A DNA stretch of 30,687 nt from IMG/VR virus record IMGVR_UViG_3300043452_000006, positions 1-30,687 of that record; one strand, given 5' to 3'. Position 1 is the first letter of the stretch; each line of letters starts with the position of its first letter. This stretch comes from a virus. This document shows, one piece after another, positions 5,830 through 30,687 of this stretch. The notes under the pieces are model-generated. The model saw only the letters and a program-made list of their open reading frames with translations, searched no databases and had not been told where the DNA came from. The translations under genes were made by a program, and so were the position numbers.

Positions 5830-6252
5830 TTATTCTACCGCTAGTCGGTGCTTTATCTCCGTTGAACTAATGCCCTGGGTGTACGGGATATAAGCCAAGC
5901 CGATTCCGTATTGGTCTAGCCAGTCTTGGCTAAAGTCCATTTGCCGGTAATAATCTCTGCGCGCCCAGTCGGAACCGATAATGATTAGGTCCGGACGGAC
6001 GGCCAAAATAGCCGGCTTAGAATCGTTCCCGGCATAATTTGGGATTACACGGCTAACGTAGCGGCAACCTTTTAGCACGGCTTCACGTTCCGCGTATCGC
6101 ATTATCGGCGGGCGACCTTTATACGCTTCTATAAATTCGTCGGTGTTTAGGGCTACCACGACTTCGCCTAGATCCGCGCAACGTTTCAAAAAGGCAACGT
6201 GGCCGGAATGAAATAGGTCGAACGTTCCGCCCGTGTAAATAGTTAGTCCCAA
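5830..6252 (-). CDS. Cytidylyltransferase-like nucleotidyltransferase
   Basis: A 140-residue enzyme of the HxGH nucleotidyltransferase superfamily, close in size to glycerol-3-phosphate cytidylyltransferase (TagD). GGTFDLFHSGHV (His15 and His18) is the nucleotide-binding motif, and GISSTEI (127-133) is the second signature. TagD enzymes make CDP-glycerol, the teichoic acid precursor; other members use other phosphorylated substrates, and the usual RTEGIS is YTQGIS here, so substrate is open. It overlaps the upstream GT2 gene by 10 bp and is the last gene of a three-gene glycan cassette. Confidence 0.85.
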   Translation of the reverse strand: MGLTIYTGGTFDLFHSGHVAFLKRCADLGEVVVALNTDEFIEAYKGRPPIMRYAEREAVLKGCRYVSRVIPNYAGNDSKPAILAVRPDLIIIGSDWARRDYYRQMDFSQDWLDQYGIGLAYIPYTQGISSTEIKHRLAVE

Positions 6253-6890
6253 CGGTTTTCCCTTCTAACGTCCAAGCTCCAGCCGTGTACTGAATAATCG
6301 TTGTCGGCTATCTTTTGGTGGTAGCGTACTTCGTTCTTGGCCCAAGTCCGCGCATTGGCTTCTAAGAAGTCTTGGCGGGTTGTCATTGGTTCGTGTCTAA
6401 TGCGAACGGGTAATTGCTTTACCGGCACGCCCGCGGCTCTTATACGGCGTTCTAGGTCGTTGTCGTCGAAGTAGATAGGGTAAAACGCTTCGTCATACAA
6501 CCCGGCCTTGGCAATACAACCTTCGCCAAAGATTGGTGCGGCCCAAGGTGTCTGGTCTACGTCTGCAAAATTTAGCGCGTTTGTATCGACTTCGCGTTCT
6601 ATGATTTCTAACGCACCTGGTTCGAACCAAGCGTCGTCGTTTACCATTACCCAATAGGGCGCGTAGGGCGTGGACTTGATAACTAGATTCCAAGCTCCGA
6701 CTAGCCCTAGGCCGAACGGTACTTCGATATGCCAAAGATTCTGTACCAAGTCTGGCTTGGTGGGTTTCCAAGTTTGCTTACCCGAATTGTTTACAATTAC
6801 CAAGTGTTCTACCGGATAATCTATGCTGGCCATAAGCCGTTCGGCTAGATCAAACCTAGTAATGGTTGCAAACCCTATAACGGGTATCAA
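6243..6890 (-). CDS. Family 2-like glycosyltransferase
   Basis: A 215-residue protein with GT2 (GT-A fold) features: an N-terminal VIGFATITRFDL strand-loop, VIVNNSG, MVNDDAWFEPG (the acidic metal/sugar-nucleotide motif) and DDNDLERRIRAAG downstream. I chose the TTG at 6890 because it overlaps the upstream TGA (TTGA), has GGAG 8 nt ahead, and starts exactly where the fold begins. An upstream TTG at 6932 would add 14 unrelated residues read inside the preceding gene. It probably transfers a sugar to a phage or host surface molecule. Confidence 0.85.
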   Translation of the reverse strand: MIPVIGFATITRFDLAERLMASIDYPVEHLVIVNNSGKQTWKPTKPDLVQNLWHIEVPFGLGLVGAWNLVIKSTPYAPYWVMVNDDAWFEPGALEIIEREVDTNALNFADVDQTPWAAPIFGEGCIAKAGLYDEAFYPIYFDDNDLERRIRAAGVPVKQLPVRIRHEPMTTRQDFLEANARTWAKNEVRYHQKIADNDYSVHGWSLDVRRENRWD

Positions 6891-8080
6891 GCGAAGCGCT
6901 CCGTCCAGAACGGCAACCAATACTTTTCCCAAACAACGTCTACATCGAATTGCTTAGCGAAGTCGATAGCGGTTTGGCTAACGCCACGGGGCGCGTCGTA
7001 GGCTAGCCCCAGCGCGTCAATAAGCGACTGAATTAGCGGGATTTGGAAGAAGCTGGATTGTTGTTCGTCCCAGAATGGCTGGCCCGCGACTAGCCAAGAA
7101 TCTGGCCCGGCTAGATCTTGCGTTGCGGCGAAGCCCGAAGTAATCACGTTGGTTCCGCACGCCTGGGCCTCTACTACCGGCACGCCGAAGCCTTCGCCAT
7201 AAGAAGCGCTTAGCAACACGTCCGAAGCCGTGTAAACGCCCGCCAAGAAGTCTTGCGGATATCCGTTGCGTAGCGTATCCGTATCGGCAATGCGAACGTG
7301 TTCTTCGCTAAGCCCTACGGCCTTTAGTAACACCGGCAACGTAAAGCCGCCGAATACTTTCGACGGTTCCATATGTAGGTATAAGTACGCGTCCGGGTGT
7401 GTGCGGCGGAATAGGGCGAACGCCATAAGTTGTTCTGCCAATGCTTTACGGTGAAAGAATCCGCCGTTGGCTTTATTGGCTTGAACCATAGACACTAGAA
7501 ACGCGTCGTCGGGTACTTGTAGATACTCGCGGACTGGTTGCCCAAACACTTCGTAGGTTGGCTTGAAAGTTTTGGTATCTATCGCGTGCGGAATATATAC
7601 GTTGTCTATACCCGCCGCGTCTAGCTGGCGCTTACCGTGTGGCGACATTGTTACCGGTGTAACGTTCTGGCGCATAAGAAACTTGCGAACGCCGGGCGGT
7701 AGCGTAATGTGGTCTAGCGGAACCCAACTAATAATTTCGCCGTCGAATTTTAGGTTGTTGTAAACCCATACATCGTAAAGCGTAAATAGCACGGACTTTA
7801 GCTTCGGGAATTGGTCGGCAAAATGCTTATGCCATACCGCCATAACATCGTCGGAATAAAGCGAATAGCCACGCGGGTAATGCGCCACTTCTCCAGTTTT
7901 TAGTTTCAGTTTTTCCATACGGCCTTCTAAGCCGTAATTAGATAGGTTGGCTACTTTTATTCCGTGTTTTAGTAGCTTCTCCGCTAGGTATTGCGCTTGC
8001 ACGCCATAACCGGTAGGTGATCCAATGGTGTTCGTAGCTAACGAAACTACGCCGTTTAGTTTGTAGGTTGCCATAGTCAT
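6887..8080 (-). CDS. Family 4 glycosyltransferase (GT-B fold)
   Basis: A 397-residue protein with the GT4 C-terminal signature EGFGVPVVE (Glu296 and Glu304, the E-x7-E motif that binds the nucleotide-sugar). A Gly-rich N-terminal acceptor site GSPTGYGVQ lies at 20-28. It is the first gene after the capsid terminator and starts the glycan cassette. Two ATGs are possible (8080 or 8074); AGAG upstream fits the second slightly better. The target is unknown: virion glycosylation or change of the host envelope are both possible. Confidence 0.9.
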   Translation of the reverse strand: MTMATYKLNGVVSLATNTIGSPTGYGVQAQYLAEKLLKHGIKVANLSNYGLEGRMEKLKLKTGEVAHYPRGYSLYSDDVMAVWHKHFADQFPKLKSVLFTLYDVWVYNNLKFDGEIISWVPLDHITLPPGVRKFLMRQNVTPVTMSPHGKRQLDAAGIDNVYIPHAIDTKTFKPTYEVFGQPVREYLQVPDDAFLVSMVQANKANGGFFHRKALAEQLMAFALFRRTHPDAYLYLHMEPSKVFGGFTLPVLLKAVGLSEEHVRIADTDTLRNGYPQDFLAGVYTASDVLLSASYGEGFGVPVVEAQACGTNVITSGFAATQDLAGPDSWLVAGQPFWDEQQSSFFQIPLIQSLIDALGLAYDAPRGVSQTAIDFAKQFDVDVVWEKYWLPFWTERFA

Positions 8081-14929: not shown

Positions 14930-15262
14930 TTAGGCCAACGGTTTATTTCCACGTCTTTGATTACAGAGACGGTGCGCTGGGGCTAATGGGCTTAGTGGGT
15001 CGCCCGGTAATAGGTGATCGGCTTCTATCTTGTCGCCTACCTGGAACGGTGCTTGGCATAAATGGCAATGCGTTGCGTTGGCTATCACTTGTTGGCGTAG
15101 CGCACGGTATCTGGATCCATACATTGCGGCCTTGTATTGCCTTCTTGGTTCTGTATTTCTTTTGGCTTCGCGAAGTTTGTTTAGTTGTTGTAGGTGAGTA
15201 GGGCAGTAGCTACCGGTAGATAGGGTCCCGCAAGTTAGGCACGGACGGTTAAATTTTGGCAT
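14930..15262 (-). CDS. HNH endonuclease next to terminase
   Basis: A 110-residue protein with a zinc-ribbon/HNH layout: CLTCG and YCPTH at the N-terminus, HCHLCQAPF, then DHLLPGDPLSPLAPAHRLCNQRRG as the HNH core. HNH proteins coded beside the terminase (as HK97 gp74) are required for cutting at cos in several phages. I take ATG 15262 as the start, since 15268 is a TTG two codons earlier; it overlaps the upstream glycosyltransferase stop. Confidence 0.88.
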   Translation of the reverse strand: MPKFNRPCLTCGTLSTGSYCPTHLQQLNKLREAKRNTEPRRQYKAAMYGSRYRALRQQVIANATHCHLCQAPFQVGDKIEADHLLPGDPLSPLAPAHRLCNQRRGNKPLA

Positions 15263-16307
15263 AAACAATTTGGCGGAACGTATCGCCTATACCCTCCCAC
15301 GAAATAGTTTCCGCATACTCGCGGCTACGTGAATGCCATTGGTCCCAGTCATTGGCTAGGTACTCTAGGGCTTCGGGTAGGTTGTTGGGTTGCTCTACCA
15401 TTATTACCCCGTTATAGCCACGCCCGCCTACCTTGGTGGTAATGATCGGTAGCCCGTAGCTCATTGCACGCGCGACCTTTAGGCTTGTCCCGCTTCCGGT
15501 GTGCATTAGGTTTACGAACGCGTAGGCATTGGCTAGGTAGTTATCCATAGTGTCGTTATCTACGTAACCGATTAGTTCTACATTAGGGCGGTTAGTGCGT
15601 ACTTGCTTAGCGCATAATCCCAGTATCTGGACGTTGTAGTTGTCCGGGGCGTTGTCGGCTAGGGCTTGGGCCGCTCTTACATTAGGGCCGTAGTTGCTTC
15701 CGATAAAGATTAGGTTTCTTGTTTTACCTTCGGCAAGCTTGGGCGGTAGATCCGTGCCATTAGGGACGTAGTGCATTGGCGCGGTTGGGTTGTAGGTCTG
15801 GCGTAGTATCTGCGCGTCTAGCTCCGAACAATAGGTAATCGCCCGCGCGTTCTTTACGGCCGCTTCTTCTAGCTCACGCACTATTTGTTCGTCGATAGAA
15901 CCTGGCCACCTAAGCGATGTTAGAAACGCTTCGGCATTGTGCGCGTCGTAGATATAGGGCGTGTCCCCTACGAACGGGTATAGCCACGGGTGTTCCAATA
16001 CGATTAGGTCCGGCGCATAGTCGGCTATTGCGGCCTTTAGTTTGTTTTGGTGCTTAGCGGTAAACGCTGGTACGCCGTCCATTGTGTACACGGCTTGGCC
16101 AAAGATCTTATTGGCTTGTTCGTGGGCTTCTGGGTCGGCGTTTATTACCTGGTATGTCATTTCGCTGTAAGTAGTTTCAAATTCCGCTTCCCAGTTAAGG
16201 GCAATGGTTTTTATGCTACCTAGCGCGGCTAGTAGGTTTAGGGCGCGTTCTGCGCCACCGAAGTTAGCCGGAATTATGTTGAACGGAACTAGGCCTAGAA
16301 CCTTCAT
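15249..16307 (-). CDS. Family 4-like glycosyltransferase (second)
   Basis: A 352-residue GT-B protein. N-terminal PANFGGAERALNLL is the acceptor-side Gly loop, DAHNAE lies at 121-126, and GSGTSLKVARAMSYGLPII (271-289) is the sugar-nucleotide binding region, with Lys277 in place of the usual first Glu side. It starts by ATGA overlap with the FmdB-like gene. It is about 7 kb away from the other glycan genes and in the early/DNA module, so it may be expressed earlier, for example to alter the host surface. Confidence 0.88.
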   Translation of the reverse strand: MKVLGLVPFNIIPANFGGAERALNLLAALGSIKTIALNWEAEFETTYSEMTYQVINADPEAHEQANKIFGQAVYTMDGVPAFTAKHQNKLKAAIADYAPDLIVLEHPWLYPFVGDTPYIYDAHNAEAFLTSLRWPGSIDEQIVRELEEAAVKNARAITYCSELDAQILRQTYNPTAPMHYVPNGTDLPPKLAEGKTRNLIFIGSNYGPNVRAAQALADNAPDNYNVQILGLCAKQVRTNRPNVELIGYVDNDTMDNYLANAYAFVNLMHTGSGTSLKVARAMSYGLPIITTKVGGRGYNGVIMVEQPNNLPEALEYLANDWDQWHSRSREYAETISWEGIGDTFRQIVYAKI

Positions 16308-24173: not shown

Positions 24174-24434
24174 ATGACTACCCACGGACTTTTTACGTCT
24201 GATTATTTACAATTCTTGCGAGAGATACACGCGGTCGGCGGTGTGCCTTGCGAAGATTACCCAAAGTTCTTCTTTCCGGAAGATTTTCCGCACCCGGAAC
24301 AACGCCAAGTAGTTATTAAGATTGCTAAGAAGTTATGTAACGAATGTCCGATAAGGGCTAAGTGTTTTACCTACGCCATAAAGTCAAACCAGCGCCACGG
24401 GATCTGGGCGGGTACCCTCCCAAGCGAACGCTAG
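24174..24434 (+). CDS. whiB: WhiB-family Fe-S transcription regulator
   Basis: An 86-residue protein and the only convincing plus-strand gene. Four Cys (26, 55, 58, 64) in the pattern C-x28-C-x2-C-x5-C ligate a [4Fe-4S] cluster. FFPED (34-38) and GIWAG (76-80) are further WhiB hallmarks; the basic C-terminal tip is short. WhiB proteins are restricted to Actinobacteria and their phages and bind the sigma factor. TACTTT lies directly ahead of the ATG and no ribosome-binding site is visible, so the mRNA may be leaderless. It probably redirects host transcription or represses host or competing phage genes. Confidence 0.92.
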   Translation: MTTHGLFTSDYLQFLREIHAVGGVPCEDYPKFFFPEDFPHPEQRQVVIKIAKKLCNECPIRAKCFTYAIKSNQRHGIWAGTLPSER

Positions 24435-24445
24435 ACGTTTTCAAT

Positions 24446-24470
24446 AAACGGTAGTTATTGTCCGTTTTAT
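24446..24470. terminator. Bidirectional terminator between whiB and the RNA gene
   Basis: aaacgg (24446-24451) pairs with ccgttt (24462-24467) around a 10-nt loop, followed by a T and AT on the plus strand and by TTTATT on the minus strand. It would end whiB from one side and the long late transcript, including the tmRNA-like RNA, from the other. Confidence 0.6.
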
Positions 24471-24511
24471 GAAACCAATTACTTTACTTTTTCGCGTTGT
24501 ATAAATCCGCG

Positions 24512-24591
24512 TGGACTTGCAGGGATTCGAACCCTGGTCTTAGTTGTCTCCGCGTGCGGTCTTTACAACTAATCGAAACCGTTCCAAGCCC
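24512..24591 (-). ncRNA. tmRNA-like RNA lacking the mRNA-like domain
   Basis: An 80-nt RNA. GGGCTTG (24591-24585) pairs with CAAGTCC (24519-24513) in a 7-bp acceptor stem with a G:U at the third pair, the alanine identity element of tRNA-Ala and tmRNA. The next 13 nt, GAACGGTTTCGAT, match the stemless D-loop region of actinobacterial tmRNA. TAGTTGT and ACAACTA (24571-24565, 24547-24541) form the P2-like helix, closed by 17 nt containing CCGC/GCGG. The T arm CAGGG-TTCGAAT-CCCTG directly joins the acceptor stem. No tag frame, pseudoknots or encoded CCA. A normal tRNA is unlikely: no D stem and no 5+7+5 anticodon arm. Confidence 0.75.
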
Positions 24592-24652
24592 TAAGAAGCC
24601 GTGGCGGGCTTGTATGCGTAGTCGCCCACGCGCCCGGTCCACGCGCTCCCGA

Positions 24653-25009
24653 CTAGTCTACGTCGTCTTTAGCGTTTGGGTCGTATAGTGCTTCGTCGCC
24701 GTCAAAGTCTACGTCGTCGAAGTCGAAGTTTCCGTCCTGGGTAACCTTTAGTGCGTCCTCTACGGCTTCGCTATCCGATTTCGCAACGGCGGCGCGAAAT
24801 GCGTTTTGCAAGTCTGAAACCTCTAGGGTTCCCTTCCAAGCCACGGCCACGCCGATAGTCGTTAGAACGACCGCAAAAGCCGAACCAACGCCAATTAGGG
24901 TCCCCATAAGTGCGTCGCCAAGCGCCGCGCCTACTGCCGTGCCACCGAACGCGGTCGCAAGTGTAAGTCCAATAGAACGGACTAGAAATTGCTTGATTGT
25001 TTCTTTCAC
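24653..25009 (-). CDS. Putative holin (two or more membrane segments)
   Basis: A 118-residue protein. Residues 10-60 are hydrophobic and Gly/Ala-rich (LATAFGGTAVGAALGDALMG, AFAVVLTTIGVAVAW) and give two probable membrane helices. The C-terminal 35 residues are very acidic, ending in Asp-Val-Asp. Gene start overlaps the endolysin stop by 4 bp. Small size, membrane character and position beside the lysin suggest a holin; an acidic tail is unusual, as most holins end basic. Confidence 0.65.
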   Translation of the reverse strand: MKETIKQFLVRSIGLTLATAFGGTAVGAALGDALMGTLIGVGSAFAVVLTTIGVAVAWKGTLEVSDLQNAFRAAVAKSDSEAVEDALKVTQDGNFDFDDVDFDGDEALYDPNAKDDVD

Positions 25010-25452
25010 TTGTTCGCCTTAATAAATTCGATTGGATCTTGCTTGCTTGTAGTCGGACCGAAAACGCCCTTGATTTCACGCGACACGGTTAGGTGTAGGT
25101 GGCCACCGGTAGAAGCCGAACCGCTTGGAAACTTCTTTCCGCCGCCGATTTTGCCGACAATATCGCCTTCGCTAACCTTAGTGCCTACGTCTAGCCCTGG
25201 TTCTGCTAGGTGGCAATAGCCAACGTAGTACAACTTCTTATCTACGCCCATTACGCGTTGCACCGATACGTTGCCAAGAACGTCCGACCATTGCTTTAGA
25301 ACAATAGTGCCGTTACCGATTGCCGGAATTGGCGTACCTTCGGGGCGCGCCCAGTCCACGCCAGAGTGGGGTTGCATACCGTTCTTACGGCGGAATTCGG
25401 ATAGTGTGCCGAATCGCCCGGTAATAAACTTAGGGTCGAATGGAAAGCGCAT
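25006..25452 (-). CDS. Endolysin, M23 family peptidase
   Basis: A 148-residue zinc metallopeptidase of the lysostaphin/LytM type. HSGVDW gives His29 and Asp33, and GGHLHL gives His118 and His120; His81 is a further candidate active-site residue. These cut peptidoglycan cross-bridges or stem peptides. There is no signal peptide and no separate cell wall-binding domain, so release would depend on a holin. It lies between two membrane protein genes, forming a lysis cassette. Confidence 0.9.
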   Translation of the reverse strand: MRFPFDPKFITGRFGTLSEFRRKNGMQPHSGVDWARPEGTPIPAIGNGTIVLKQWSDVLGNVSVQRVMGVDKKLYYVGYCHLAEPGLDVGTKVSEGDIVGKIGGGKKFPSGSASTGGHLHLTVSREIKGVFGPTTSKQDPIEFIKANK

Positions 25453-30104: not shown

Positions 30105-30596
30105 TTATGGTGTGTAAACAAGGAATACGTCGCCGTCCATACCGATAGCGGTTCCCGGTGCGACTGTTCCAAGACTGATATTTCTAACTACGGCAGAACC
30201 AACCGCGGCGGTTGTTACCGCGCCATTAGTGCGCGCGACGTAGTTGGTAGCAATGTCGGTAACTTGCGAAGAAGCAATAGTAATCCCCGAACCGATTGCG
30301 GCGTAGTTTGCGTTTAGAGTTACGCTACCCGAAGTTCCGCCACCGGTAAGCCCTGTACCCGCGGTAACGGCCGTAATGTCGCCCGTGGCAATAGATACCC
30401 ACGCGGACCCGTCGTACACCTCTACGGCGTTTGTATCCTCTAGGTATGAAACCATACCTTCTACTACGGCGGTACCTAAAGTCGTTCCGCGCGAAGCTGT
30501 ACCCGCGTATACCTGGACGACCTGGTTTTGGACGTACGCTTGGAAGTCGGGTTCGGTTACGACCTCCCCAACGGTCCAGTCTTTCCAACCAGTCAT
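30105..30596 (-). CDS. Tail adaptor/fibre protein
   Basis: A 163-residue protein. Residues 1-70 (WKDWTVGEVVTEPDFQAYVQ, then GMVSYLEDTNAVEVYDGSAW) are related to the start of the S74 fibre and look like the domain that binds the tail tip. The rest has Gly/Thr-rich beta repeats (VTAGTGLTGGGTSGSVTLN) found in fibre shafts. On the circular map it follows directly after the minor tail protein, so opens the fibre operon. Confidence 0.75.
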   Translation of the reverse strand: MTGWKDWTVGEVVTEPDFQAYVQNQVVQVYAGTASRGTTLGTAVVEGMVSYLEDTNAVEVYDGSAWVSIATGDITAVTAGTGLTGGGTSGSVTLNANYAAIGSGITIASSQVTDIATNYVARTNGAVTTAAVGSAVVRNISLGTVAPGTAIGMDGDVFLVYTP

Positions 30597-30687
30597 TTTC
30601 TATTTCTCCTAATACGCGAGAGTATTGCCCGCACTAAGTTTACCAAAGAATGGGTCCGACAGTCTCCAGAACCCGGCTTCGATACCG
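30520..30687. repeat. Contig-end overlap, right copy
   Basis: Matches 1-168 with three substitutions, all within the first 42 bases; the remaining 126 bases are identical. Joining the two ends gives a circular map of about 30,519 bp with no gene interrupted. Confidence 0.85.
30609..30687 (-). CDS. Partial: C-terminus of the minor tail protein (duplicate)
   Basis: The last codons of the 407-residue minor tail protein at 90-1313, ending ...SAGNTLAY and a stop, repeated because the window overlaps itself. Identical to the left copy over this length. It shows that the minor tail gene lies immediately upstream of the gene at 30105-30596, 12 bp apart. Confidence 0.8.
   Translation of the reverse strand, partial: GIEAGFWRLSDPFFGKLSAGNTLAY

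Follow-up and report, generated by a model that had tools for sequence, protein, structure and literature searches.

The window, i.e., the whole stretch of DNA analyzed here, is an IMG/VR virus record of 30,687 bases whose ends (positions 1-168 and 30520-30687) overlap by 168 bp at 98.2% identity; in view of this overlap, it is close to a whole phage genome. It contains a siphovirus-like gene set (terminase, portal, protease, HK97-type capsid, and tape measure), and its closest sequenced terminase is that of Pontimonas phage phiPsal1 (54% identity), which, together with a WhiB-like gene, points to an actinobacterial host. A cytidylyltransferase and several glycosyltransferase-like genes lie inside the structural block (5830-8080 and 15249-16307), an arrangement to which phiPsal1 is similar in part. 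A small RNA is found between two convergent genes, which encode a small membrane protein and WhiB. It is read from the minus strand, like nearly all other genes in the window; an earlier note on this DNA had named no strand. At the DNA level, a search of the region against sequenced phages revealed no long-range homology. The locus comprises the following features:

24174-24434, plus strand: WhiB-family regulator, convergent with the RNA, which marks an actinobacterial phage
24435-24653, unstranded: lineage-specific segment of 219 bp holding the RNA, missing from the same site in the close relatives L002 and L003
24439-24474, unstranded: imperfect inverted repeat with arms of 13 nt and a spacer of 10 nt, located between the RNA and whiB, a possible terminator
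24512-24591, minus strand: predicted TLD-only tmRNA gene (mini-tmRNA), 80 nt up to discriminator A73; 84.3 bits with model R2, which was built from sequences that include it
24585-24591, minus strand: 5' strand of the acceptor stem, GGGCUUG, with G3 of G3:U70; in relatives, G1-G3 are invariant and positions 4-7 covary
24573-24584, minus strand: stemless D region GAACGGUUUCGA, a tmRNA-type D loop
24565-24572, minus strand: 5' strand of helix P2, UUAGUUGU
24548-24564, minus strand: P2 loop of 17 nt, AAAGACCGCACGCGGAG, with the small hairpin CCG-CACG-CGG, replacing the mRNA-like domain and pseudoknots
24540-24547, minus strand: 3' strand of helix P2, ACAACUAA
24537-24539, minus strand: GAC linker preceding the T arm (compare GGAC of actinobacterial tmRNAs)
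24520-24536, minus strand: T arm CAGGG UUCGAAU CCCUG
24512-24519, minus strand: 3' strand of the acceptor stem, CAAGUCC, and discriminator A73; C74 is encoded, the remainder of CCA is absent
24653-25009, minus strand: small membrane protein resembling a holin in position and composition, encoded upstream of the RNA and on its strand
25006-25452, minus strand: M23 peptidase (endolysin-like), upstream of the RNA in the same transcription unit

From 24591 to 24512, the DNA reads GGGCTTG GAAC GGTTTCGA TTAGTTGT AAAGACCGCACGCGGAG ACAACTAA GAC CAGGG TTCGAAT CCCTG CAAGTCC A, and the corresponding RNA is laid out as GGGCUUG-GAAC-GGUUUCGA-UUAGUUGU-AAAGACCGCACGCGGAG-ACAACUAA-GAC-CAGGG-UUCGAAU-CCCUG-CAAGUCC-A. 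The earlier note had described a tRNA-like domain of tmRNA type, and the anatomy agrees with that description: the acceptor stem has seven of seven pairs, including G3:U70, the D region is stemless, and the T arm has five of five pairs. Helix P2, given there as 7 bp, in fact consists of 8 pairs. As had also been noted, the strands of P2 are closed by only 17 nt, so that the mRNA-like domain (resume codon, tag, and stop) and pseudoknots PK1-PK4 are absent. The RNA shares with canonical one-piece tmRNA (RF00023) the G3:U70 acceptor, A73, the stemless GGUUUCGA-type D loop, P2, the GGAC linker, the T arm, and the UCCAC end, but lacks approx. 280 nt containing the resume codon, tag, stop, and pseudoknots, and the window copy falls below the gathering score. 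It is not a tRNA either, as it has neither a D stem nor an anticodon arm and is called by neither ARAGORN nor Rfam. The window almost certainly encodes a tmRNA-type RNA without a message. In addition, a 9-nt perfect inverted repeat, CGCGTGGAC/GTCCACGCG (24508-24516 and 24637-24645), would allow the 3' end of the RNA to pair with the leader, although it may have arisen by chance.

Infernal and ARAGORN had been named as checks in the earlier note. Neither ARAGORN nor Rfam at gathering thresholds reports the RNA in the window; RF00023 aligns it end to end with 44.6 bits against a cut-off of 47, and relatives mostly reach 51-77 bits. The RF00023 score was dropped as decisive proof because ordinary tRNA-like genes (76 nt) from Actinomycetes score as high as 42 bits. 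Single-sequence folding was set aside as well: z is only about -2, and the minimum free energy fold is unlike the tmRNA fold. With the covariance model R2, purpose-built for the family and including the window RNA among its building sequences, members outside the model score 63-78 bits (46 for a weak member, Alone3), whereas tRNA genes score at most 32. These scores, together with extensive compensatory change, indicate that the RNA is not a chance occurrence.

Exact patterns built on the D and T sequences of the window copy had no matches; the family was then opened by a relaxed pattern (GGWTTCGA as D loop, then 28-58 nt and a T arm). In IMG/VR, this pattern matched at least 120 stretches, and among the matches listed, 81 also form acceptor and P2 stems; in bacterial and archaeal genomes it matched 115 stretches, only three of which pass the stem filter, all false on inspection. 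A strict pattern returned 41 and 34 contigs in two exhaustive scans. The pooled set comprises at least about 78 different RNAs with this plan on at least ~110 IMG/VR records, a count that excludes two tRNA false matches. Across the analysis, L052, L099, L182, and L216 were discarded as tRNAs or chance matches. The RNAs range from ~75 to 92 nt, with all helices kept. Searching 297 Actinomycetes genomes with R2 gave two matches, both on contigs with phage-like proteins as judged by eye; the RNA is thus restricted to phages. These two copies (L291 and L292) have the D loops GGTGTCGA and GGCGTCGA, and their neighbors are phage-like genes (phosphodiesterase and kinase) or a gene resembling those for portals. 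Among cultured phages, unannotated copies are present in Pontimonas phage phiPsal1 (5569-5647) and Streptomyces phages Shaeky (42932-43010), pSt2308, LuckySocke, BRock, and GiJojo (in the last, beneath a predicted ORF), and weaker copies are present in Alone3 and Daubenski. In Daubenski, a full 283-nt tmRNA (97446-97728) is accompanied by a divergent RNA of mini-tmRNA-like type whose D loop is degenerate (86343-86419; L290:2448-2524); the latter has BLAST matches in dozens of Streptomyces phages.

The covariation of both stems, which the earlier note had named as a check, is extensive: in relatives, it extends to each of the eight P2 pairs, to four pairs of the acceptor stem, and to two of the T arm, whereas G1-G3, U70-C72, and A73 are fixed. 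In an alignment whose columns are placed by the D-loop and T-loop anchors alone, many pair types occur at each of the eight P2 positions, at acceptor pairs 4-6, and at the outer pairs of the T arm, and pairing there lies far above that of shuffled controls. In alignment A2 (26 sequences), 94.1% of cells are paired versus 65.3% after shuffling, and covariation is 0.736 versus 0.160 for shuffled sequences and 0.07-0.13 with a slid structure. In particular, L068 and L080, which carry the RNA at the same membrane-protein/whiB site, have a P2 sequence unrelated to that of the window and an intact P2 helix. On this comparative evidence, the RNA is real and functional.

When RNAs were chosen blind to the acceptor, i.e., by P2 and the T arm alone, 55 were obtained, and 54 remained after removal of L052, a tRNA. 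All 54 have U70, C71, C72, A73, and a 5' GGG, whereas positions 66-69 use all four bases (the acceptor stem of phiPsal1 reads GGGGCCG/CGGTTCC). Such a pattern provides evidence of selection for alanine charging across the family. Position 74 is C in 51 of the 55 acceptor-blind RNAs; this nucleotide is nearly always encoded and C75 and A76 often are not, as is likewise the case in actinobacterial host tmRNAs. Even in a scan without a D-loop requirement, GGNNTCGA is still found in 21 of 23 distinct relatives. Moreover, GGUUUCGAC, the GGAC linker, and the UCCAC end are common to the RNA and actinobacterial host tmRNAs. A CCGCNNGCGG-type hairpin in the P2 loop is common across the family. The cap CCGC-NN-GCGG, following AAAG or AAAA, recurs in many of the RNAs (24548-24564 in the window), and a similar motif, GC(A/G)C(A/C)CGGAG, occurs in host tmRNAs directly before the distal P2 strand.

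A phage-captured ssrA gene with its middle deleted, either as a pseudogene or through an assembly artefact, would also display the sequence elements of tmRNA, and close relatives without the segment could be taken to fit such an origin. This explanation is refuted by the covariation and must be regarded as extremely improbable, given that dozens of distinct RNAs of ~75-92 nt keep their helices by compensatory change and that copies are found in several cultured complete phage genomes. The preference of the earlier note against a degraded ssrA copy is therefore upheld. A full-length tmRNA at the same site in relatives was also looked for, and none was found: L068 and L080 have a mini-tmRNA there, and L002 and L003 have nothing.

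Across phages, the RNA is located at several unrelated sites. In phiPsal1 and several contigs from IMG/VR, it lies directly upstream of the capsid gene; in another group it adjoins a phosphodiesterase gene, and elsewhere, e.g., in Streptomyces phages, it is embedded in tRNA arrays. The RNA nearest to that of the window by sequence (L037, 69 of 80 positions identical) is located before a capsid gene. The membrane-protein/whiB site is occupied in the window, L068, and L080, and in the latter two the RNA also adjoins homologues of the small membrane protein, which has no match in Pfam or PHROG. At this site, the 219-bp piece with the RNA is missing from L002 and L003, both of which are fragments; because the RNA is present in L068 and L080, it may equally well have been lost in the L002/L003 lineage or gained in the window. 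The variable location also bears on the idea that the RNA is an attachment-site remnant, left by integration into a host tmRNA gene. Some cluster K actinophages do use tmRNA as attB (PMC10865867), but attP typically copies the 3' part only, whereas here both halves are present and covary. In addition, no integrase was found in the window with PHROG and PF00589 profiles, and a scan for tyrosine integrases detected one in 3 of 49 records; Shaeky has a serine integrase. A remnant of this type is very unlikely. WhiB is encoded in 18 of the 49 records.

The RNA seems to be transcribed, in the window by read-through. Transcription is argued for by its position on the same strand as the upstream gene or, where that gene is opposite, by a -10 element. 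In particular, such an element was found in 7 of 26 cases with the upstream gene opposite, versus 0.3-1.3 expected, although several of the seven represent one clade; there is no excess of -10 elements when the upstream gene is on the same strand, and no sigma-70 promoter was found directly upstream of the RNA in the window. The earlier note had also suggested a role late in infection. This agrees with the gene order of the window, in which the RNA comes after the genes for the peptidase and the small membrane protein, but not with many relatives, which carry the RNA elsewhere, including tRNA arrays and sites behind promoters of its own.

Approximately one third of the contigs scanned have tRNA genes, and several of them hold the RNA inside the array. 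Since phage tRNAs have been proposed to counter tRNA-cutting defenses (PMC10264068), the RNA might be a generic tRNA-like accessory that does not act via SmpB but, e.g., serves as a sponge for tRNA nucleases or tRNA-modifying enzymes of the host. Such a role is improbable: most copies stand alone, there is no anticodon arm, and the kept tmRNA-type D loop and AlaRS identity suit AlaRS and SmpB better. The view of the RNA solely as a component of tRNA arrays was rejected, again because most copies are found alone. The Streptomyces phage arrays that include the RNA (L250, L251, and L281-L283) also contain a gene for an RNA ligase, which may serve tRNA repair.

The earlier note was mistaken in assuming that no phage RNA of this kind had been described. 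The RNA of mycobacteriophage DS6A was classed as 'TLD only' (Hudson et al. 2014, PMC4131195) and is mentioned, along with short plastid forms, by Nawrocki et al. 2025 (PMC11915505); the tmRNA database holds 9 'standard, no CDS' entries among 97,179 sequences (PMC11915505). Like the window RNA, that of DS6A is phage-borne, contains little beyond the tRNA-like domain, and has no tag frame. The likeness is drawn from its description, and DS6A is a single phage in the papers cited, whereas the present family covers more than 100 contigs from several phage groups and is characterized by conserved alanine identity and the recurring CCGC-NN-GCGG cap. The kind is thus already known; as far as the literature shows, its breadth, uniform architecture, and selection for alanine charging are new. 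A TLD-only tmRNA that had been treated as a curiosity of one mycobacteriophage is now found, mostly unannotated, in over 100 phage contigs as well as several cultured actinophages. The tag-coding region has also been lost from jakobid and oomycete mitochondrial tmRNAs (RF02544) and from the ~65-bp plastid tmRNA of Mallomonadaceae. In contrast to the phage RNA, these are organellar, and the mitochondrial ones are mostly permuted and thought to use imported SmpB. Full-length or two-piece tmRNA genes are carried by the mycobacteriophage Bxz1 group, OM43 phage Melnitz (PMC9004378), and Streptomyces BE1 phages (PMC5764925), but these are annotated as tmRNA genes proper. A parallel in layout is an engineered TLD fragment used with SmpB (PDB 2CZJ, as cited in PMC3929946), which also has a shortened P2 and a small loop; according to that citation, it is a 63-nt laboratory Thermus construct made of 5' 25 nt and 3' 34 nt with a UUCG joining loop.

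Together, these features suggest a mechanism in which the locus encodes the tRNA-like domain and the first 8 bp of P2, with a small-hairpin cap in place of the tag frame and pseudoknots. The RNA would probably be transcribed with the lysis-region genes and then excised by host tRNA-processing enzymes. Judging from the invariant identity elements, host AlaRS probably charges the RNA with alanine by way of G3:U70; the RNA would then be bound by host SmpB via the D loop and elbow and delivered by EF-Tu. SmpB was not found in the 26 records scanned, so that SmpB of the host would be used. As there is no resume codon, each SmpB or stalled ribosome taken would be lost to the host tag-and-degrade route, and trans-translation would be inhibited or diverted during infection. 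The phage mini-tmRNA therefore probably intercepts the host ribosome-rescue machinery, and inhibition of host trans-translation is, on balance, its probable net effect. A decoy or inhibitor had been among the functions proposed in the earlier note, and it is the best supported of them. It is favored by the existence of a covarying family, the fixed charging elements, the kept D loop, the motifs shared with host tmRNAs, and the lack of SmpB in the 26 records, as well as by a report, as cited in PMC4131195 and PMC11915505, that a similar TLD-only molecule, chargeable or not, strongly inhibits E. coli tmRNA, perhaps by titrating SmpB (Mao et al. 2009).

Three observations count against this reading. 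The published inhibition is independent of charging, yet the charging elements are strictly kept; titration does not need alanine elements, so pure SmpB titration fails to explain their conservation. It is therefore likely that a charged RNA enters stalled ribosomes, and the retention of alanine identity suggests that the RNA acts charged, beyond the needs of SmpB titration. Furthermore, L002 and L003 (both fragments) are without the RNA at the window's site, and the coexistence of a full tmRNA and a mini-like RNA in Daubenski is odd for a simple inhibitor.

A charged RNA might instead serve template-free rescue or alanine tailing, a possible but rather unlikely function. The mini-tmRNA and SmpB would enter non-stop ribosomes, and the nascent chain would move onto alanine; repeated rounds would yield a poly-alanine tail, or another factor would free the chain. 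The phage would thereby clear stalled ribosomes without an SsrA degradation tag, perhaps with an RNA that offers no tag codons for RNase toxins to cut. The strict conservation of G3:U70 and A73 is consistent with such a role. Moreover, SmpB and a TLD fragment yield poly-alanine in vitro without mRNA (Shimizu and Ueda 2006, as cited in PMC3929946), the crystallized TLD fragment, as presented in PMC3929946, has the same layout as the phage RNA, and tag-less tmRNAs are kept in jakobid and oomycete mitochondria, in oomycetes alongside a mitochondrion-targeted SmpB. However, the sole in vivo report found inhibition, also without charging, and release of the chain lacks a stop codon to explain it. 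If rescue proved true, it would represent a widespread viral tag-less rescue or alanine-tailing system that replaces host trans-translation during infection. The family makes two questions accessible in laboratory strains, namely the reason for phage interference with ribosome rescue and the action of a message-less tmRNA on a stalled ribosome.

The RNA also reveals a blind spot in annotation: the copy in the window escapes ARAGORN and falls short of the Rfam cut-off, and two other copies are miscalled as long tmRNAs. ARAGORN calls at L062:5905-6228 (minus strand) and L111:10045-10574 (plus strand) end at their 3' side in mini-tmRNAs, and their 5' ends and tags are probably spurious. Tallies of phage tmRNAs based on ARAGORN may include similar cases.
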